This document shows, in pieces, positions 2,076-34,352 of a stretch of 34,352 bases of DNA; position 1 is the stretch's first letter, and each line of letters starts with the position of its first letter. Made by a program: the position numbers and the translations under genes. Below the pieces are notes generated by a model that saw only the letters and a list, made by a program, of their open reading frames with translations, made no database searches and was not told the origin of the DNA. Location of the stretch: the NCBI GenBank assembly GCA_018240895.1, contig JAFEEX010000015.1:1-34352 (forward strand). The letters run 5' to 3'. The DNA is from Pseudomonadota bacterium. GTDB taxonomy: Bacteria; Pseudomonadota; Alphaproteobacteria; Sphingomonadales; Sphingomonadaceae.

Positions 2076-2558
2076 TCACGGCAATTCAATACCGACCAGG
2101 CCGGGACGGATAACGCGGGCGCGCAGCGGGGCGGCCCCGCCACTGGCCGGGCGTACTTTCACCCAGGCACCGATTGCGGCGCTTTCCAACGCTTCGCCTG
2201 GCTGGGACACCGTGAAGCTGCCGTCCCCGGCTATGATCGTCACCGCGTCGCCGCGCATCACGGCGGGCCCAGTCTGTTGCCCAGTCTGTTGCGCGGTCTG
2301 TGCACCACCAAGCGACACGAACAGCTTCCATCCGCCCGGAGCCGGGCAACCGATTTCAACAGTATCCTGCCGCGTTCCGTACCAGCGCAGTGCCAACGGG
2401 CGAGCGCAGGCGGCCAGCCGTAGGCGCCGGTCAACTGGCACACCCGCCTGTCCGGCAAAGTCGGCAACGGCGCGGTCAATCGCCGCAAGATCGGCAAGTG
2501 GCTGCGCAATCGCTGGGACTGGGCCCAGCAATAACGGCAAGGCAAGAACATATCTCAT
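2076..2558 (-). CDS. flgA: P-ring assembly chaperone FlgA
   Basis: FlgA is a periplasmic chaperone that helps FlgI form the P ring around the rod. The product has 160 residues, shorter than the roughly 220 of enterobacterial FlgA. It starts with a signal peptide (residues 1-18, hydrophobic core, AIA cleavage site). The C-terminal SAF-like domain (from about residue 93) contains MRGDAVTIIAGDGSFTVSQPG, then AAIGAWVKVRPASG and RARVIRPGLVGIEL, typical of the family. Cys51 and Cys75 could pair in the periplasm. The ATG overlaps the stop of the upstream membrane protein gene by 4 bp. The client FlgI is encoded in the divergent operon. Confidence 0.88.
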   Translation of the reverse strand: MRYVLALPLLLGPVPAIAQPLADLAAIDRAVADFAGQAGVPVDRRLRLAACARPLALRWYGTRQDTVEIGCPAPGGWKLFVSLGGAQTAQQTGQQTGPAVMRGDAVTIIAGDGSFTVSQPGEALESAAIGAWVKVRPASGGAAPLRARVIRPGLVGIELP

Positions 2559-2983
2559 CGGCGAAGCTCCATCGGATTGGCAGGGTCGTGCTCACCCAGC
2601 AAACTGCGTGCCATCCGGGCGTCCTGGTCATAGGTCAGCGCGGCATAAGGCTCTCCCGATCCGCCCGGTTCGATCACCAGCCGCGCCGGACGCCCCGCCG
2701 TGCGGACCAGCGACAGCGCTTGCCCGGCGGAATCGAGCGGGGCCACCACGGTCAATCGCAGGCGCGGGTCCGCCCCTTGGACGGCCAGCCACAATGCCAG
2801 CGGCGGTGCCTTGTCCCCGCTCCGCCACACAGCCACCGGTTCACCCAGCGCGGGAAGCACTGGCGGTGGCGCGGTGGCCAGTGTTGCCGGTGCATCACGC
2901 AAGGCAGCGGCAGTGATCATGAACAGGATCAGCGACAAGTCGGTCATTACGTATTGCCAGCCGGTTCCGGCCCGCGCCTTCAC
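2555..2983 (-). CDS. Small single-pass membrane protein, possible MotB/ExbD-like partner
   Basis: I do not recognise a named family. The 142-residue product has a short N-terminus, one hydrophobic segment (about 15-28, DLSLILFMITAAAL) and a soluble remainder of about 110 residues, presumably periplasmic. An Asp (Asp15) sits at the start of the membrane helix, in the context VMTDLSLILF. This recalls the proton-carrying Asp at the head of the helix in MotB and ExbD. There is no OmpA-like peptidoglycan-binding domain. The start is GTG, overlapping the stop of the MotA/ExbB-like gene by 4 bp, and the stop overlaps flgA. The tight coupling supports a two-subunit complex, but the stator role is inference. 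Confidence 0.6.
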   Translation of the reverse strand: MKARAGTGWQYVMTDLSLILFMITAAALRDAPATLATAPPPVLPALGEPVAVWRSGDKAPPLALWLAVQGADPRLRLTVVAPLDSAGQALSLVRTAGRPARLVIEPGGSGEPYAALTYDQDARMARSLLGEHDPANPMELRR

Positions 2984-3627
2984 GCGGCCAACCCTTTGCC
3001 GCGTGGAGGTACAGCGTCGGCAATCTGCCCGGCCAGCCAGTCGATCACGTCCTGCCGCGCGGTTTCCTCTTTGGCCGCCGCGCGCTCTATCAACCTGGCC
3101 AGCGGCGCAAGCACCAGATTGGCCGCCAGCAAGCCATACAGCGTTGTGACCACGGCCATTGCGATTGCACCGGTGAAGGCCCCGCGTGCCAGACCGTCAG
3201 CGGGGAGCTGGCTCAGGGCGATCAGAGTTCCCGCCAGCCCGAACACCGGCGCAAGCTCCGCAGCCTGCGACACGGTCCGTACCGCCCGCTCGCTTTGAAC
3301 AAGCCGGCGCAGCTTGTGCGTCTCGTGCCGGTCAAGCAGCGCGACAAGCGATCGGGATTCGATCAAGGCCCCGGTGGCTTCCTCAAATTCGCTGTCCGCA
3401 TAGTGGTGCGGCGCAGCACGATAAAGCCCGTCCCGGCGGATGTCCTGCACCTGGGCGGCCAGTTCCGCGCGGGTCGCATCCACGTCGAAACCGCTGCCGC
3501 ACAACCGCGTCAGCCGGATCATCGTCGTTCGGCAATCGCCAATCCCGCAGCGCAGCACGGTGGCCACCGCTGTTCCGCCAAGCACGATCGCCGCCGACGG
3601 ACCATCGATCAGGGTCATCCAGTTCAT
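2980..3627 (-). CDS. MotA/TolQ/ExbB-family proton-channel protein (short form)
   Basis: This 215-residue inner-membrane protein belongs to the MotA/TolQ/ExbB ion-channel family. The two C-terminal helices carry the family pattern: AAELAPVFGLAGTLIAL (about 122-138) and AIAMAVVTTLYGLLAANLVL (154-173). The N-terminus begins directly with a MotA TM2-like segment (DGPSAAIVLGGTAVATVL, 8-25), so the usual first helix is missing and the topology is three-helix. The cytoplasmic loop (30-120) is charged. It is distinct from the full-length MotA at 11839-12702. The start is supported by a strong AAGGAGGA about 10 bases upstream. Its partner may be the next gene. It might drive rotation or another envelope process. 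Confidence 0.8.
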   Translation of the reverse strand: MNWMTLIDGPSAAIVLGGTAVATVLRCGIGDCRTTMIRLTRLCGSGFDVDATRAELAAQVQDIRRDGLYRAAPHHYADSEFEEATGALIESRSLVALLDRHETHKLRRLVQSERAVRTVSQAAELAPVFGLAGTLIALSQLPADGLARGAFTGAIAMAVVTTLYGLLAANLVLAPLARLIERAAAKEETARQDVIDWLAGQIADAVPPRGKGLAA

Positions 3628-3652
3628 TGTGCCGCGTCCTCCTTTCCAGCGA

Positions 3653-3679
3653 AGAACGGCAACGGTGGGGCGTTTTCAG
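3653..3679 (-). promoter_or_regulatory. Weak sigma-28-like promoter of the MotA-like/flgA operon
   Basis: The minus strand reads CTGA-N15-GCCGTTCT, followed by TCGC. The -10 part and the next four bases are identical to the flgM promoter, but the -35 part matches poorly. The last -10 base lies 25 bases before the ATG, leaving room for the strong ribosome-binding site at 3638-3646. Confidence 0.4.
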
Positions 3680-3682
3680 TTT

Positions 3683-3720
3683 CCGGCGAAACTTTGCCGG
3701 CATCCGGCAGAACATTGCCG
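3683..3720. promoter_or_regulatory. Cluster of GCCGG/CCGGC half-sites, possible enhancer
   Basis: Between the divergent operons lie CCGGC (3683), TGCCGG-CAT-CCGGCA (3695-3709, a perfect inverted repeat) and TTGCCG (3715). The inverted repeat centre is about 60 bases upstream of the flgB -24 element. That position suits binding by a sigma-54 activator such as the FlbD-like protein encoded here. The assignment is inference. Confidence 0.4.
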
Positions 3721-3762
3721 CCAGTCACTACGCCCGAACCAGAAATGCGCCGATTCTGCATT

Positions 3763-3778
3763 TGGCACGACGTTTGCT
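3763..3778 (+). promoter_or_regulatory. Sigma-54 promoter of the flgB operon
   Basis: The sequence TGGCACG-ACGT-TTGCT matches the -24/-12 consensus TGGCAYRN4TTGCW at every defined position. A transcript starting about 12 bases later would have a 5' leader of roughly 37 bases containing AAGGAGG (3814-3820) before the flgB ATG. Confidence 0.88.
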
Positions 3779-3826
3779 GCATGGCGCTTGCTGAATGAGT
3801 CGGCACGCAACCCAAGGAGGGCCATC

Positions 3827-4174
3827 ATGGCCGAAAGCCTGTTTGGAATTCACGCCGCCGCACTGGAACTGCGCAGCCAGCGCATGGGGCTGATCACGTC
3901 CAACATCGCCAATGCTGCAACCCCCGGGTACAAGGCGCGCGACATTGATTTCGCCGCCGCGCTCAAAGCCAGAAGCGAAGGCCTGGGCAAGAACCAGGCC
4001 ATAGCGGGCAACACCCAATACCGCGTCCCGGTCATGCCCAGTCTTGACGGCAACACCGTTGAAATGGCGACAGAGCAGACAGCGTTCGCCGAAAACGCCG
4101 TGGGTTATCAGACAACGCTCAGCTTTATTCGCGGGCGGGTCGATATGCTGACCCGTGCGCTGAAGGGCGATTGA
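3827..4174 (+). CDS. flgB: Flagellar rod protein FlgB
   Basis: FlgB is a proximal-rod subunit that sits next to the MS ring. The 115-residue product shows the rod-protein N-terminal motif LRSQRMGLITSNIANAATPGY (about 17-37) and a C-terminal helix (NAVGYQTTLSFIRGRVDMLTRAL) expected to pair with it in the D0 coiled coil. The ATG at 3827 is preceded by AAGGAGG at good spacing. An in-frame extension upstream would run through the promoter, so the internal start is right. The gene opens the long plus-strand operon and overlaps flgC by 4 bp (TTGA). Confidence 0.95.
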   Translation: MAESLFGIHAAALELRSQRMGLITSNIANAATPGYKARDIDFAAALKARSEGLGKNQAIAGNTQYRVPVMPSLDGNTVEMATEQTAFAENAVGYQTTLSFIRGRVDMLTRALKGD

Positions 4175-9556: not shown

Positions 9557-10883
9557 TCTTTTCACCATCGGTTCCAGCGGCGTAAGGGCGGCGCGAACCG
9601 CACTGGACATTACCGCGCAGAACATCGCCAATGCCGGAACGGATGGCTATGTCCGCCGTTCAGTGCGGCTTTCCGAACTCGCTTCGGCCGGCGGATGGAA
9701 CCGGGTGGGCGATCTTTCGCTGTCCGGTGTGCGCGTTGACGGGATTGCGCGCAATGCTGACCTGTTCCGCCAGACGGAAGTGCGCCGCACCGGATCGGAT
9801 GCGGCACGGGCCAAGGCTGAGCTGGCCGGATTGCAAAGCGGGGAAGCCGCGCTTGAGCAATCGAAGCTTTACCCCGCGCTGACCACGTTCGAGGCATCGT
9901 TGCAGCGACTGGCAACCGATCCGGTCGACCCGTCGCTGCGCGCCGCCGCGATGGAGGACGCGCGCACCCTTACACGCACGTTCAACATCGCGGCGCAAGG
10001 GCTTGATCAAGCAGCACAAGGGCTGCGGTTTGAAGCGGGCGACGGGGTGGAACAGGTCAACCGCGCTTCAACCGAGCTGGCCCGGATCAACCTGCAACTC
10101 GCCCGCACCCAGCCCGGCACCAGCGATCAGGTTTCGCTGCTGGACCGGCGCGATACGCTGCTGCAATCGCTGTCGGGCTTTACTGACCTGACCACCAAAT
10201 TCGCCGCCGACCAGACTGTTGAGGTGCGGATCGGCGGAAGCGGCGGCCCACAACTGGTCAGCGGCGGCACCGCCAGTTCCATGGCCATGGCCACTGCCGC
10301 AGACGGCACTGTTTCCTTTACCCTTGGCGCAGCCGCCGTGGTCCCCTCTGCGGGATCGCTCGCAGGCCAGGCCCAGGCGCTGGTGGCATTGCGGGACAAT
10401 CGCACCACGCTTGACAGCATTGCCGACACACTGAGTGCAGCCGCCAATGCCGTGCAGACCGGCGGAACCGCGCTGGACGGCTCTGCCGGGCAACCGCTGT
10501 TTTCAGGCAGCGGTGCGGGGGGAATAACCCTGGCCATCGCCACCGGCGCGCAGCTTGCCACCGCCCCGGCGGGTGCAAACGCGGGAAGCCGCGACCCCGC
10601 CAATCTGGATGCGCTGCGCGGCGCGCTTTCAACCAGCGCCATCGCTGACCGGACAGACAGCCTGCTGTTCACCGCCTCCAGTGCAGTCCAGGGCCGCAAG
10701 ACCACCAGCGACGCGCTGGACAGCATTGCTTCATCAGCCCGGCTTGCGCTTGATAGCCAGGCCGGCGTCGATCTGGATCAGGAGGCGGTCAATCTGGTGC
10801 GCTTTCAACAGGCGTTTCAGGCCAGCGGCAAGGCGATCCAGGTGGCATCGACCATTTTCGACACCCTGCTGTCGTTAAAGTAA
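9546..10883 (+). CDS. flgK: Hook-filament junction protein FlgK (HAP1)
   Basis: FlgK is the first junction protein between hook and filament. From the ATG at 9546 it has 445 residues, shorter than the roughly 550 of Salmonella. The N-terminus DLFTIGSSGVRAARTALDIT is followed by AQNIANAGTDGYVRR. An internal FlgK block reads SDQVSLLDRRDTLLQSLSGF, and the C-terminus GVDLDQEAVNLVRFQQAFQA is followed by SGKAIQVASTIFDTLLSL. The middle is Ala/Gly-rich. The reading frame extends far upstream without a stop, but the homology starts at this ATG, within the end of flgJ. Its export chaperone is probably FlgN (1346-1705). Confidence 0.94.
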   Translation: MASDLFTIGSSGVRAARTALDITAQNIANAGTDGYVRRSVRLSELASAGGWNRVGDLSLSGVRVDGIARNADLFRQTEVRRTGSDAARAKAELAGLQSGEAALEQSKLYPALTTFEASLQRLATDPVDPSLRAAAMEDARTLTRTFNIAAQGLDQAAQGLRFEAGDGVEQVNRASTELARINLQLARTQPGTSDQVSLLDRRDTLLQSLSGFTDLTTKFAADQTVEVRIGGSGGPQLVSGGTASSMAMATAADGTVSFTLGAAAVVPSAGSLAGQAQALVALRDNRTTLDSIADTLSAAANAVQTGGTALDGSAGQPLFSGSGAGGITLAIATGAQLATAPAGANAGSRDPANLDALRGALSTSAIADRTDSLLFTASSAVQGRKTTSDALDSIASSARLALDSQAGVDLDQEAVNLVRFQQAFQASGKAIQVASTIFDTLLSLK

Positions 10884-11838: not shown

Positions 11839-12702
11839 ATGTTTGCAGCAATCGGCATCGTCATTCTTCTGGTCATGGTGTTTGGCGGTTTCGCCATAAC
11901 CGGCGGAGCGCTGGGCCCGGTGATGGAAGCCATTCCGCATGAAATGCTGATCATCCTTGGCGCGGCCGCGGGGGCGCTTGTTACCGGCAACAATATGCAC
12001 GGAATCAAAGCGTTCTTTGGCGGCTTTGCCAAGGTGATCAAAGGACCGAGGCATACCAAGGCGGATCACATTGATGCGATTGTCCTGACCACCCGGCTGA
12101 TGAAACTGCTGCGCGCCGAAGGGCCTGTGGCGCTGGAAAGCCACGTTACCGAACCGGAAAATTCCGCCCTGTTCGGCGAGTTCCCCCGCATCCTGGCCAA
12201 CAAACCGTTGACCGCGCTGATCTGCGACACGCTGACCCTGATCGTCGTTTCTTCCGGCACGCTGGAAACCCACGCGGTTGAGGAAGTGATGGACAATGCG
12301 ATGAAAACGCACTTCCACGAATTGCACGAACCGCAGCACGCATTGCAGAACCTGGCCGACGCCCTGCCCGCGCTGGGAATCGTTGCCGCCGTGCTGGGCG
12401 TGGTCAAGACCATGGGTTCAATCGACAAGCCACCACCGGTGCTGGGCGGGATGATCGGATCGGCGCTGGTCGGCACCTTTATGGGCGTGCTGCTGGCCTA
12501 TGGCATCGTTGGCCCGATGGCGAGCCGACTGAAACAGGTGATCGAGGCGGACGAGCAAATCTTCCACGCGGTCAAGCAGGTGTTGATCGCCAGCCTTCAC
12601 GGATGGCCGCAGCCGCTGGTAGTGGAAAGCGCGCGCTCCGGCCTTGGCCACGATTTCCGCCCTGGCCTGTCAGAGCTGCTGGACGCCCTGAGGGCGCGCT
12701 AA
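11839..12702 (+). CDS. motA: Flagellar motor stator protein MotA
   Basis: MotA is the inner-membrane stator subunit that, with MotB, converts ion flow into rotation by acting on FliG. The 287-residue product has the four-helix layout: two N-terminal helices (about 3-21 and 33-50), a long cytoplasmic loop with RLMKLLRAEG and VMDNAMKTHFHELHEPQHAL, and two C-terminal helices with ADALPALGIVAAVLGVVKTM and GGMIGSALVGTFMGVLLAYG. The prolines expected in the channel helices are present. It is followed four bases later by motB and sits at the end of the flgB operon. It differs from the short MotA-like protein at 2980-3627. Confidence 0.96.
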   Translation: MFAAIGIVILLVMVFGGFAITGGALGPVMEAIPHEMLIILGAAAGALVTGNNMHGIKAFFGGFAKVIKGPRHTKADHIDAIVLTTRLMKLLRAEGPVALESHVTEPENSALFGEFPRILANKPLTALICDTLTLIVVSSGTLETHAVEEVMDNAMKTHFHELHEPQHALQNLADALPALGIVAAVLGVVKTMGSIDKPPPVLGGMIGSALVGTFMGVLLAYGIVGPMASRLKQVIEADEQIFHAVKQVLIASLHGWPQPLVVESARSGLGHDFRPGLSELLDALRAR

Positions 12703-12706
12703 TCCC

Positions 12707-13549
12707 ATGGCGAGCAAATCAGCGCCGGGGAACAATGAACTGCCCCCTCCGATTATCGTCAAGAAGGTAACCGTTGTTGCCGCCGGCCACCACGGCGGAG
12801 CCTGGAAAGTGGCCTACGCCGATTTCGTCACCGCAATGATGGCGTTTTTCCTGCTGTTGTGGTTGCTGGGTGCAACCACTGAAAAACAGCGCAAGGGCAT
12901 AGCTGATTATTTCACCCCTACCCTGGTCAAGCTGAGGGAACAGAGCGCCGGATCAAACGGTATGCTGGGGGGGGCATCGATCACCGATGTTGACAATTAC
13001 CCCAACCGTGCCGGCCAGACCGGCAACAAGGCCATGACTATCCCCCTCGATGCAAGCGGCGGCCCGCGTGAGGGGGCCGCACAGATAAAGCGGATGCAGG
13101 CCATGCAATCACGCCTGGCCGCAAAGATCGCCAGCAATGCCAGGCTTTCGCGTCTGGCCCGGCAAGTGCGGATGGTTGACACGGCCGAGGGGATCCGGAT
13201 CGATCTGGTCGACGATGCCGACTTTTCGATGTTCCAGCTGGGCACCACCGTGCTTACGCCAGAGGCGGCGGAACTGATCAAGGCGCTTGGCGCGGTGATT
13301 TCGCCGGAACCGGGGCAGATCTCGATCCGCGGCCATACCGATGCGCTGCCCTGGAACGGCGGGCCTAGCGCCAACAACTGGTCGCTGTCCGCAGGCCGGG
13401 CCGAAGCGACGCGCCAGGCCTTGCTGCGTCAGGGAATTGGCGAGGCGCGCTTCCGCCGGATCGAAGGCGTCGCCGACCGTGAACCGCTGATCCGCGACGA
13501 TCCGCTCGATCCGCGCAACCGCCGTATCTCGGTGCTATTGATGCATTGA
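12707..13549 (+). CDS. motB: Flagellar motor stator protein MotB
   Basis: MotB anchors the stator to peptidoglycan and carries the proton-binding residue. The 280-residue product has a cytoplasmic N-terminus with PPPIIVKKV, then HHGGAWKVAYADFVTAMMAF, whose Asp39 corresponds to the essential proton-carrying Asp of MotB, followed by one membrane helix. The periplasmic OmpA-like domain is clear: ISIRGHTDALPWNGGPSANN, then WSLSAGRAEATRQALLRQGI and DPLDPRNRRISVLLMH. A run of eight G (12967-12974) sits in the linker between helix and OmpA domain. Confidence 0.96.
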   Translation: MASKSAPGNNELPPPIIVKKVTVVAAGHHGGAWKVAYADFVTAMMAFFLLLWLLGATTEKQRKGIADYFTPTLVKLREQSAGSNGMLGGASITDVDNYPNRAGQTGNKAMTIPLDASGGPREGAAQIKRMQAMQSRLAAKIASNARLSRLARQVRMVDTAEGIRIDLVDDADFSMFQLGTTVLTPEAAELIKALGAVISPEPGQISIRGHTDALPWNGGPSANNWSLSAGRAEATRQALLRQGIGEARFRRIEGVADREPLIRDDPLDPRNRRISVLLMH

Positions 13550-31609: not shown

Positions 31610-34352
31610 TCAGAATTTCACGCCCGCAGTGACGCCATAGCGGCGCGGTTCGAGCGTGAAGACGTTGGTGTAAAGACCCGACGATTGATCAGTTACATAC
31701 AGACCGGTAATCGCGGTATTTTTGGTCAGGTTCTGAACCCACGCACGCAGCGACCATGCTTTGTCAGGCCCGCTGAGTTCGATCTGCGCGTTGACCTGGC
31801 TGTAGCTCTTGACGGCGTTGACCGAGCTGTTGAACACGCTGCCTTGCGACTTGCCAGTGTAGATATAATCGACACGCGGGGTCAAAGTCATCGCGCCCAG
31901 CGGCAAGGCGTACTGAATGCCGGCCGAGAACTTGTAGTCGGGCGCACCAGGCAGCTTGTTGCCGATTATGTTGGTGGGAATACCGGCGGCGTAGACCGAT
32001 ACTCCACCGAGCGCGGCCGGGTCAATTTTAAGCGGGCCGAGCGCAGCCAAGTTGAACGCACCCTTTGCCGCAGCGTCAAGCGCCGCGCAAACGCTGAAGG
32101 CTCCCGTCGACGCAATGCCGCCACCTGCCGGGAATGCTGTAGTTGGTTGCAGCCCGGCGCCGGCCTTGAGCCCCGGAACAACTCCGAGATTAATCAGAGT
32201 ATTAACCCCATTAACAAACGTGTTAACACCAGCAACACTTCCAGAAGTTGACGCAACCGCGCAGTTCGCGCCGTTGGTGATGTCCTTGATGATCACCGCA
32301 TCGGATCGCCCACCACCAAAGTCGCGTGGGTTCGCCATCGGGTTCGGGGTATTCGTTACCTCGGTATGAAGATAGCTGGCGTTGGCGTTGATCGTCAATT
32401 CGGGGGTCGGCCGAAGCACGGTTTCAAGCTCAAGCCCATAGATCTTTGCATCGACATTGTCGTTGACTGACGAACGCGACACGATGCGTGAAAGCTGCAG
32501 CCCCTTATAGTCGTAGTAGAATCCGGTAAGATTCAATGTCATCAGACCATTTGCGAAGGTATTCTTCGAACCGATTTCAAACGCATTGACGTATTCAGGC
32601 GTGAAGGTCGTCGGAACCGCCGCAACCGGTGAAAGTGGCGGATTGATCCCGCCAGACTTGTAACCGCGCGAATAGGAAATGTAGAGCAGGTTATTGCGGG
32701 TTATGTTCCAGTCCAGCACCGCGCGGCCGGTAAACTTGCCGAACGAAACCGATGCATTTGCCCACGATTCACAATTCGCCGCCGATCCGATTGCGCCAAC
32801 CGGGCTTCCTGCCGGACAGACAGTCGTCGGATCCGCATCGTACTGCGCCGCAAACGGCGAGGACCAGGCGCTAGTGGAACCAAACGGCGTAAGGAAGCTC
32901 GCCAGCGTCGTGCGAGCGCTCACTTTCTTCTGGTCGTGGTTATAGCGCAAACCAAGGGTCAGTTTCAGCGTATCGCTGAACTTATAGTACGCCTCGCCAA
33001 ACAAGCCGTATGATTTCAGGCGATAATTGTCAGTGTTGTTGCGATAGTACGGCGTTGCCAGATAGCTTGGTGGCAAACCGCCGCCCAAGGCACTGAGCGT
33101 TCCGACAACACCGGTGAAATAATCGATGCCGAACGAATTAATGTAGTAGCTGTTCTCATCCATATCCATGGAGGCATAGATACCACCGAGCAGGAAGTTG
33201 AACTTTCCATCCCATTTCGACGATATAATTGCTTCGGTTGACCAGGCGGTATCCGTCTGGTTGGACCGGTCAAAATCCTGCGGCGTGGCCGAGCATATCT
33301 TGTGCCCGCCGAAAGAGCCGGTTCCGGTTACTTCGGGCAGCGATGTGCAAATTACGCCAGCCGGACCATTCGGGATCAGGGCGTTTGCAACCGGCCCCAG
33401 ATACGAAGCCAAAGCGGCACCACCCCCGCCTCCGGCAAGGAACGCAAGCGTGTTCAGCGCGGGCTGATAGATCGCGCGATTCTGGACCGACAGGTTATAG
33501 TCCTGTTCCGAATCGACCCGCGTGTCCTGATAGTTGGCATCAATCTTGAGATTGAGCCCGCCACCCAATTCCTGGTTGATGGAACCCTGCATGATGAATT
33601 CGCTGGTGCGATATTTTGGCGTGAAATCGGTATTCACCGTCCGGTAATCTGCCGGGTTGACCACGCCGGCATAGGGATCAGCGCCATAAAGGTCGCCAAG
33701 CGCCAGCCCCGTGGGGAGCCCGCGGGCTGCGAAGAACTGCTTGGACGTCAGCACACCCACAAACGAGGTATTGGCGTTGGTGGTCGAAAAGTCCCGGCTG
33801 CCGTTAAGGCATCCCAGCACACCGGTTGGGTCGCGCTGACAGAGTTGCTTCTGAATGCGCATACGGCTGTCCTTCTCGTAGAAGTACTGCCCCATCAGGT
33901 CAATCGTGGTGGTGGGAGTCGGTTCAACCCGAAGTGAAGCGCGCAGACCGTACATATCGCGGTCATCGATCTTCGAATTGTCGAACAGGTTCTTGGTGTA
34001 GCCGTCACGTTTGAGATAGAAGCCGGCTACGCGCACCGCCGCCTGATCACCCAGCGGCACGTTGACCATGGCTTTCGCCTTGATACCGTTGTAATTGCCA
34101 TATTCGCCTTCAGCACTGGCGGCAAACCCGGTCAGGCTGGGACGCGCGGTGCGGAAGTTGACCACGCCCGAAGTCGCGTTGCGGCCATACAGGGTGCCCT
34201 GCGGCCCGCGCAGCACTTCGATCTGCGCCATGTCATAAAATTCGCCTTCGAACAGACGGGTGTTGAACAGCGGCGCGTCATTGTAGTGGATCGCGGTGGC
34301 GCTGTCGCAGGTCGTGCCCACACACAGATCGCCGATGCCGCGGATCGTGAAG
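31610..34352 (-). CDS. TonB-dependent outer-membrane receptor (N-terminus beyond window)
   Basis: This is a beta-barrel receptor that imports a substrate using TonB energy. About 914 residues are visible; the signal peptide and start of the plug lie past the right edge. The first visible residues FTIRGIGD belong to the plug domain, followed by GEFYDMAQIEVLRGPQGTLY, then GRNATSGVVNF, the classic plug signature. The barrel has many alternating strands (YISYSRGYKSGGINPPLSPV) and ends with YGVTAGVKF, a terminal Phe as required for barrel insertion. Two very long loops each hold a Cys pair. The substrate is unknown. Base composition is visibly less GC-rich than in the flagellar genes. It is not part of the flagellar system. 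Confidence 0.93.
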   Translation of the reverse strand, partial: FTIRGIGDLCVGTTCDSATAIHYNDAPLFNTRLFEGEFYDMAQIEVLRGPQGTLYGRNATSGVVNFRTARPSLTGFAASAEGEYGNYNGIKAKAMVNVPLGDQAAVRVAGFYLKRDGYTKNLFDNSKIDDRDMYGLRASLRVEPTPTTTIDLMGQYFYEKDSRMRIQKQLCQRDPTGVLGCLNGSRDFSTTNANTSFVGVLTSKQFFAARGLPTGLALGDLYGADPYAGVVNPADYRTVNTDFTPKYRTSEFIMQGSINQELGGGLNLKIDANYQDTRVDSEQDYNLSVQNRAIYQPALNTLAFLAGGGGGAALASYLGPVANALIPNGPAGVICTSLPEVTGTGSFGGHKICSATPQDFDRSNQTDTAWSTEAIISSKWDGKFNFLLGGIYASMDMDENSYYINSFGIDYFTGVVGTLSALGGGLPPSYLATPYYRNNTDNYRLKSYGLFGEAYYKFSDTLKLTLGLRYNHDQKKVSARTTLASFLTPFGSTSAWSSPFAAQYDADPTTVCPAGSPVGAIGSAANCESWANASVSFGKFTGRAVLDWNITRNNLLYISYSRGYKSGGINPPLSPVAAVPTTFTPEYVNAFEIGSKNTFANGLMTLNLTGFYYDYKGLQLSRIVSRSSVNDNVDAKIYGLELETVLRPTPELTINANASYLHTEVTNTPNPMANPRDFGGGRSDAVIIKDITNGANCAVASTSGSVAGVNTFVNGVNTLINLGVVPGLKAGAGLQPTTAFPAGGGIASTGAFSVCAALDAAAKGAFNLAALGPLKIDPAALGGVSVYAAGIPTNIIGNKLPGAPDYKFSAGIQYALPLGAMTLTPRVDYIYTGKSQGSVFNSSVNAVKSYSQVNAQIELSGPDKAWSLRAWVQNLTKNTAITGLYVTDQSSGLYTNVFTLEPRRYGVTAGVKF

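Follow-up and report, generated by a model that had tools for sequence, protein, structure and literature searches.

A reduced second stator-type gene pair beside flgA in the Sphingomonadaceae, probably an accessory ion-driven unit of the flagellum

In the flagellar gene cluster of the sphingomonad studied here, two small overlapping genes (gene 1 and gene 2) directly upstream of flgA probably specify an additional membrane motor of the MotA/MotB type, driven by ions and forming part of the sphingomonad flagellum. Comparisons at the level of protein sequence showed that the pair descends from a PomAB/MotCD-type flagellar stator and not from ExbBD/TolQR, and the best reading of its overall shape is a second stator-type unit reduced towards an Exb/Tol-like form, whose job we infer. 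Because a complete MotAB is encoded in the same cluster, such a unit would be an accessory. An accessory ion-driven unit is favored since the residues of the ion machine are kept, the parts for wall-anchored torque are reduced stepwise, and canonical MotA is present in nearly all genomes that carry gene 1.

In the accessible text of PMC12505986, flagellar stators (flagellar ion transporters, FIT) are defined by a four-helix fold, an expanded cytoplasmic domain (at least four helices), a plug with a linker, and an OmpA-type domain, and a four-helix A subunit with an anchored B subunit is proposed as diagnostic of them. A family-wide pair of flagellar ancestry that breaks the four-helix and anchor rules and yet is under selection makes both these rules and the minimal parts of a rotary motor testable. 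The words sphingomonad, TM1, and flgA are absent from the accessible main text of PMC12505986, and no description of a sphingomonad pair lacking TM1 was found in the titles and abstract openings of the open-licence PMC papers that literature searches matched.

Genomic setting and distribution

The window is the whole stretch of DNA that was analyzed (34,352 nucleotides). A sequence-only reading had placed a 215-residue and a 142-residue protein, overlapping by 4 bp, at 2555..3627, and these coordinates, gene lengths, and overlap were reproduced. The features are as follows, with sigma-54-type sites scored against what we take to be the consensus.

2980-3627, (-): gene 1, 215 aa, MotA/PomA-type A subunit without TM1
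2555-2983, (-): gene 2, GTG start, 142 aa, B-type subunit
2980-2983, (-): stop/start overlap of gene 1 and gene 2, 4 bp
2939-2941, (-): Asp15 codon of gene 2 (putative ion carrier)
2076-2558, (-): flgA (P-ring chaperone gene), directly downstream of gene 2; ChapFlgA match above cut-off
464-1288, (-): SLT transglycosylase gene, downstream of flgA, flgM, and a FlgN-like gene
11839-13549, (+): canonical complete motA-motB, same cluster; context, separate from the gene 1/gene 2 pair
2598-2613, (-): sigma-54-type site, perfect match, inside the end of gene 2, ~40-55 nt before flgA
3763-3778, (+): sigma-54-type site, perfect match, in the divergent region beside gene 1, towards flgB
1328-1343, (-): sigma-54-type site, perfect match, just before the SLT transglycosylase gene

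Gene 2 and flgA also overlap by 4 bp, and downstream of flgA follow flgM (FlgM match above its cut-off) and, in the same run, a FlgN-like gene with a weak match below the FlgN cut-off. The earlier statement that the pair is joined to flgA, flgM, and flgN holds as adjacency, but flgA has a candidate promoter of its own inside gene 2. A full set of flagellar genes alongside had also been described correctly: flgB to flgL were read from the sequence on the strand opposite to the pair, with the complete motA-motB. The canonical MotA (287 aa) carries PF20560 and PF01618 (with the MotA_N domain), and MotB (280 aa) carries MotB_plug and OmpA. At the edge of the flagellar cluster, a 903-aa open reading frame (31610-34321, minus strand) looks, by eye, like a TonB-dependent receptor.

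The sigma-54-type site at the end of gene 2 before flgA recurs, with at most two mismatches, in 126 of 157 loci (1.2 expected), and the one towards flgB in 154 of 162 (1.75 expected). Sites towards gene 1 were seen in only 7/162 loci (1.75 expected); both the 157- and the 162-locus counts contain repeated genomes. As sigma-54 sites rarely face the pair, its expression class seems to differ from that of flgB-L and flgA, and in general the pair seems to be bracketed by predicted sigma-54 promoters while using neither. Given the candidate promoter inside gene 2, flgA, though adjacent, need not depend on the transcript of the pair. The site before the SLT transglycosylase gene suggests that this gene is a separate flagellar transcription unit. 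Repeated CGGCAA/TTGCCG half-sites lie between gene 1 and flgB (3627-3827), and in the same region in relatives; they probably bind an activator or repressor of the sigma-54 flagellar cascade and resemble what we take to be FlbD-type sites.

Among 397 Sphingomonadaceae genomes, gene 1 was found in 176 (E<=0.001) and FlgI in 263. Gene 1 was present in 174/263 FlgI-positive genomes and in 2/134 FlgI-negative ones (G199 and G283; the two lists were compared by hand), with a Fisher p of 6e-42 that overstates independence because the genomes are related. In each of the 34 genomes with coordinates compared, the distance between gene 1 and flgI is 4.4-5.7 kb. The weakest of the 176 matches were checked in part only, with 20 distant loci fetched, and flgA lies immediately downstream of the pair in 20/20 of these, so the conservation beside flgA that the sequence-only reading had proposed as a check was borne out. 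When 20 flagellar loci from 19 FlgI-positive, gene-1-negative genomes were inspected, 5 did carry gene 1, and the scan is therefore an undercount; in the other 15, of which 8 have a detectable flgA, gene 1 was not seen. About two thirds of the sampled flagellated Sphingomonadaceae (174/263, undercounted as above) thus carry a second motor-type pair.

Canonical MotA is strong (E 3.3e-69 or better, hand comparison) in 173 of the 176 gene-1 genomes, and the pair is therefore not needed as sole stator. Two others, G283 and G521, have weak MotA matches only and are fragmented assemblies. A sole-stator role was considered for G179 (locus L201), which has gene 1 and no MotA match, and was rejected because this looks like a decaying cluster: the fetched sequence has flgB and flgF broken across frames and yielded no flgK, flgL, motA, or motB after flgI, though it still contains flgA and the gene 1/gene 2 pair.

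At locus L169 (G163), a degenerate gene 1 that has lost its Pfam match stands upstream of flgA, and the partner is gone; the TM3 Thr and the TM4 motif have disappeared from its sequence, and G163 still has FlgI and MotA. Both genes are lost at L202 (G247, labeled g45 as is L169), where flagellar genes, including flgA, flgI, and flgH, and MotA and MotB sequence remain. Since the pair is absent or degenerate in these flagellated lineages and at the 15/20 loci above, it is dispensable there.

Ancestry and architecture of the two subunits

Gene 1 matches Pfam MotA_ExbB above the cut-off (E 4.8e-10) and also matches NCBIfam models, with scores under NCBI's own cut-offs; together with the PDB matches, these group it with stators of the PomA/MotP/MotC type. 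PF01618 has 4 or 5 members in each of the 11 Sphingomonadaceae genomes checked, canonical MotA and gene 1 among them, and the genomes used for the tree were seen to encode ExbB/TolQ-type members too. In this tree (79 rows), ExbB/TolQ split from all others with support of 100/100, and gene 1 proteins grouped with the PomA-type and MotA1-type stators, which places the A subunit in the flagellar clade and outside the ExbB/TolQ grouping of the GIT class. Among solved structures, PomA is the nearest (8bri and others, E 3e-20), and the 10 PDB sequences among the matches listed (E up to 0.01) are all MotA/PomA, with no ExbB or TolQ chain among them. PomAB/MotCD-type stators form the TGI4 class of flagellar ion transporters in the accessible text of PMC12505986.

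The absence of the first MotA helix, noticed in the sequence-only reading, was confirmed: gene 1 starts just before TM2, its profile alignment to PomA begins at PomA residue 28, and upstream of its start the open frame extends for only 16 further codons. Hydrophobic stretches lie at residues ~12-30, 125-143, and 150-180, with ~95 residues between those of TM2 and TM3. Because the automatic hydropathy count of helices is noisy (1 to 7 segments), loss of TM1 was judged from the alignment and the N-termini. Without TM1, gene 1 does not have the four-helix 'square fold' of the flagellar stator membrane domain; a three-TM A subunit with a compact periplasmic B domain, as in ExbBD/TolQR, is what the pair presents at the sequence level.

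Outside the family, TM1 is present. In the first sample, 71 of 89 same-genus genomes (the window's own included) matched gene 1, the weakest at E 4.5e-33; 148 genomes were searched and 122 matched in all, and the 51 matching genomes from outside the genus, which represent other families of the order, gave weak matches (E ~1e-7 to 1e-15); those of them that were fetched encode four-helix proteins. At the order level, a four-helix PomA-type protein stands upstream of a sigma-54-activator-like gene in 19/19 matched loci, and flgA was not detected in the fetched flanks of any of these; nor was it found in the short flanks of 26 class-level loci outside the family. A TM1-like helix was seen in 19/19 order-level and 26/26 class-level loci (22 of the latter in one scan, and L229, L244, L249, and L250 in a separate check). 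As all 45 of these other-family relatives keep TM1, the TM1-less form is, in this sample, confined to the Sphingomonadaceae. The short proteins were not all together in the best tree, and repeated loss of TM1 was therefore considered; it was set aside, since a single short clade was not rejected (AU p 0.394), and a single loss, being simpler, is preferred.

The gene 2 product has a single N-terminal hydrophobic helix, which bears a W-x5-D motif like that of MotB; a short linker joins this helix to a compact periplasmic domain. An ion-binding Asp in the B helix is a defining feature of flagellar stators, and gene 2 has it: the one-helix protein with Asp15 described earlier stands, and Asp15 is kept in 125/125 scorable partners in an alignment of 126 distinct ones, as expected of a residue that orthologues should share on the earlier reading. 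In the 75 rows of a further set (A4), Asp15 is likewise kept in 75/75, and W9, D15, L20, and F21 are invariant. Both sets were chosen by position and not by motif, whereas set A2 is not counted as evidence for the Asp because it was built with a pattern requiring it. The count leaves out L169, which has no partner, and L025, L063, and L116, for which the wrong frame had been chosen, and L015 is gapped at the Asp column owing to a late start; the pattern-based search behind A2 shows the Asp in L015 and L025. L101 was left out of A4 because of a possible frameshift. At this locus (9629-10191), gene 2 is seemingly split over two frames, with either a frameshift or an assembly error being possible.

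The periplasmic domain of the window protein has no recognizable family. Searched against Pfam and NCBIfam with E up to 1, gene 2 matched no model, those of ExbD, MotB_plug, and OmpA included, so that it shows neither the OmpA-type peptidoglycan-binding domain of flagellar stators nor membership of the ExbD/TolR family. Of the earlier likening of its layout to MotB/ExbD, the likeness to ExbD is one of layout and not of family, given the 100/100 separation of gene 1 in the tree and the missing ExbD match of gene 2. More distant partners are less reduced. In set A5, with 22 other sphingomonad partners of 145-176 aa, the OmpA-type Arg (R119), a residue that binds peptidoglycan in OmpA-like domains, is invariant (22/22). 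When 10 of these distant partners were scanned, 6 exceeded the Pfam cut-off for MotB_plug and 4 that for OmpA, and NCBIfam MotD or MotB-type models matched 9, under NCBI's own cut-offs.

Profile comparison linked the two ends of this range through the intermediates L161-L167, which matched the C-terminal domain of the window clade at 86% (E 4.7e-6) and the 15 remaining partners at 92% (E 6.6e-7), with controls (reversed; FlgA) below 1%. A direct comparison of the window-clade domain with the OmpA-bearing partners failed (0.4%), and the link therefore runs only through this chain. The most plausible reading of the C-terminal domain of gene 2 is that an OmpA-like domain has eroded past detection by Pfam, and the earlier statement that gene 2 has no OmpA-like domain is right as far as Pfam detects but overlooks this probable remnant. 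The series from OmpA-bearing through intermediate to eroded partners offers a natural experiment on a stator changing its job.

Compared with known systems, the pair is most like PomAB/MotCD: the closest sequences to gene 1 are of this type, the ion-path residues are conserved, and gene 2 partners in relatives match MotD and PomB. It differs in that the sphingomonad A subunit is without TM1, the B subunit is without the long linker and, in the window clade, without a detectable OmpA/peptidoglycan-binding domain, and the pair stands upstream of flgA in addition to a complete MotAB. With ExbB-ExbD/TolQ-TolR it shares three A helices (by alignment), a short linker, and a compact periplasmic B domain; however, gene 1 falls outside their clade, gene 2 is without a Pfam match, and the Exb/Tol-like layout looks convergent on this evidence. 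The canonical MotA1-type MotAB of the same cluster belongs to the same superfamily and flagellar locus, but has the longer MotA with MotA_N and MotB with plug and OmpA, and sits on a separate branch of the tree. The MotAB and MotCD pairs of the dual-stator bacteria Pseudomonas aeruginosa and P. putida are both described as stators in the accessible text of PMC11633141 and PMC9765564. The sphingomonad arrangement resembles these systems in having two MotAB-type pairs for one flagellar motor. Both Pseudomonas pairs are of the standard build, with four TM helices and OmpA.

Conservation and selection

The putative ion path of gene 1 was scored in 67 short rows, made up of three groups with the window protein left out. 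The TM3 Pro is present in 67/67 and the TM3 Thr in 66/67, and the two Thr of TM4 in 59/67 (first) and 64/67 (second). The sites that we take to be rotor contacts, the equivalents of PomA R88 and E96, are less well kept. The R88-equivalent Arg occurs in 23/67 short rows overall (12/20 in Novosphingobium, 8/22 in the intermediate set labeled 'ery', and 3/25 in the distant short rows) as against 19/19 PomA-type rows. The E96-equivalent acid is found in 3/20 Novosphingobium, 14/22 'ery', 23/25 distant short, and 16/19 PomA-type rows. The 'ery' set comprises L118-L140 and includes five same-genus loci (L118, L119, L120, L122, and L123). By this measure, the two rotor-contact charges of a flagellar stator are not consistently retained in the short proteins.

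Co-occurrence of the two genes, which the sequence-only reading had named as a check, was confirmed: a partner with a start codon in the 4-bp-overlap position was found at 145 of 162 gene-1 loci and in 115 of 127 distinct pairs, although the script favored that start wherever present. Since most loci have the overlap-position start and Asp15 is invariant, the pairing of gene 1 with gene 2 exceeds chance. Median pairwise dN/dS was 0.13 for gene 1 and 0.19 for gene 2 (25 pairs, two being duplicates of the same genomes), which indicates, at the sequence level, that purifying selection acts on both genes. The helix is the most constrained part of gene 2, with a median dN of 0.03 as against 0.13 in the domain that follows. 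Mean-field DCA of 123 paired rows (with Meff 100) showed no excess of couplings between TM3/TM4 of gene 1 and the helix of gene 2 (1 of the top 80 pairs, as against 3.6% of all pairs), a null that is uninformative because those columns hardly vary. L169 lost the channel residues together with the partner, so selection appears to hold these residues elsewhere, which suggests that partner and channel residues are retained together.

Proposed function and alternatives

The idea of a second stator or stator accessory, raised from the sequence alone, fits these results: the pair is linked to the flagellum and is of PomAB/MotCD-type stator descent, and a full MotAB is encoded alongside it. In the mechanism that we favor, an A subunit that, to judge from the alignments, has lost TM1 would work with a B subunit cut down to a helix that a short linker connects to a compact, apparently OmpA-derived domain; the ion-path residues (Asp of B; TM3 Pro and Thr and TM4 Thr of A) are kept. 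By analogy with other superfamily members, the complex would contain five A and two B subunits (5:2), and ions passing Asp15 would drive rotation of A about B. With less certainty, the pair could serve as an auxiliary stator in lineages that retain the OmpA-type Arg and the rotor-contact acid, and in Novosphingobium it might be an unanchored, low-torque energizer or modulator at the flagellar base and not the main torque generator. The poorly kept R88-equivalent Arg, the near loss of the acid in Novosphingobium, and the undetectable OmpA anchor all argue against ordinary torque generation.

A more specific version is offered tentatively, as a possibility about which we are doubtful. Within one family, a stator may have been converted stepwise into an Exb/Tol-like, unanchored ion-driven machine, with TM1 and the long linker lost first and then, in Novosphingobium and its neighbors, the recognizable anchor and the rotor contact. 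Such a machine would drive or adjust some process at the flagellar base that is not ordinary rotation.

It is unlikely, in our view, that the pair energizes periplasmic flagellar assembly, with ion flow letting the gene 2 domain act on FlgA/FlgI, the rod, or peptidoglycan during building of the P and L rings, in the manner of TolQR/ExbBD. For the ring-assembly role raised in the sequence-only reading, the support is the adjacency to flgA. The position of flgA directly downstream in 20/20 distant loci would suit such a role, as would the compact, short-linker B domain without a detectable OmpA anchor in the window clade and the acid that is mostly gone in Novosphingobium. However, a promoter-like site inside gene 2 would serve flgA alone, the flagellated L202 retains flgA, flgI, and flgH without the pair, and the OmpA-type Arg in all 22 partners and the acid in 23/25 distant rows point to stator ancestry and use.

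Quite unlikely is an inhibitory or regulatory unit, in which gene 1 or gene 2 would assemble together with MotAB, or compete with it, at the rotor, serving to brake the motor, to adapt it to load, or as an exchange partner. A pair that lacks TM1 and the usual long linker would seem hard to fit into mixed rings with the 287-aa MotA, and the rotor-contact Arg is poorly kept, even though the pair is extra to canonical MotA in 173/176 genomes, gene 1 is one of the 4-5 PF01618 members in 11/11 Sphingomonadaceae genomes, and the PomA/MotC lineage is used elsewhere for second stators (accessible text of PMC11633141 and PMC9765564).

The accessory ion-driven unit remains the reading that we prefer. 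That the pair is the decaying remnant of a former second stator, retained by position only, is highly improbable and largely refuted for most lineages: the losses of TM1, linker, and (in the window clade) recognizable OmpA domain, the degenerate, partnerless gene 1 of L169, and the flagellated L202 (g45) without both genes would fit it, but both genes have low dN/dS, the Asp is invariant, the channel residues are near-invariant, the overlap is conserved family-wide, and at L169 the channel residues went along with the partner, so that selection appears to hold them elsewhere.
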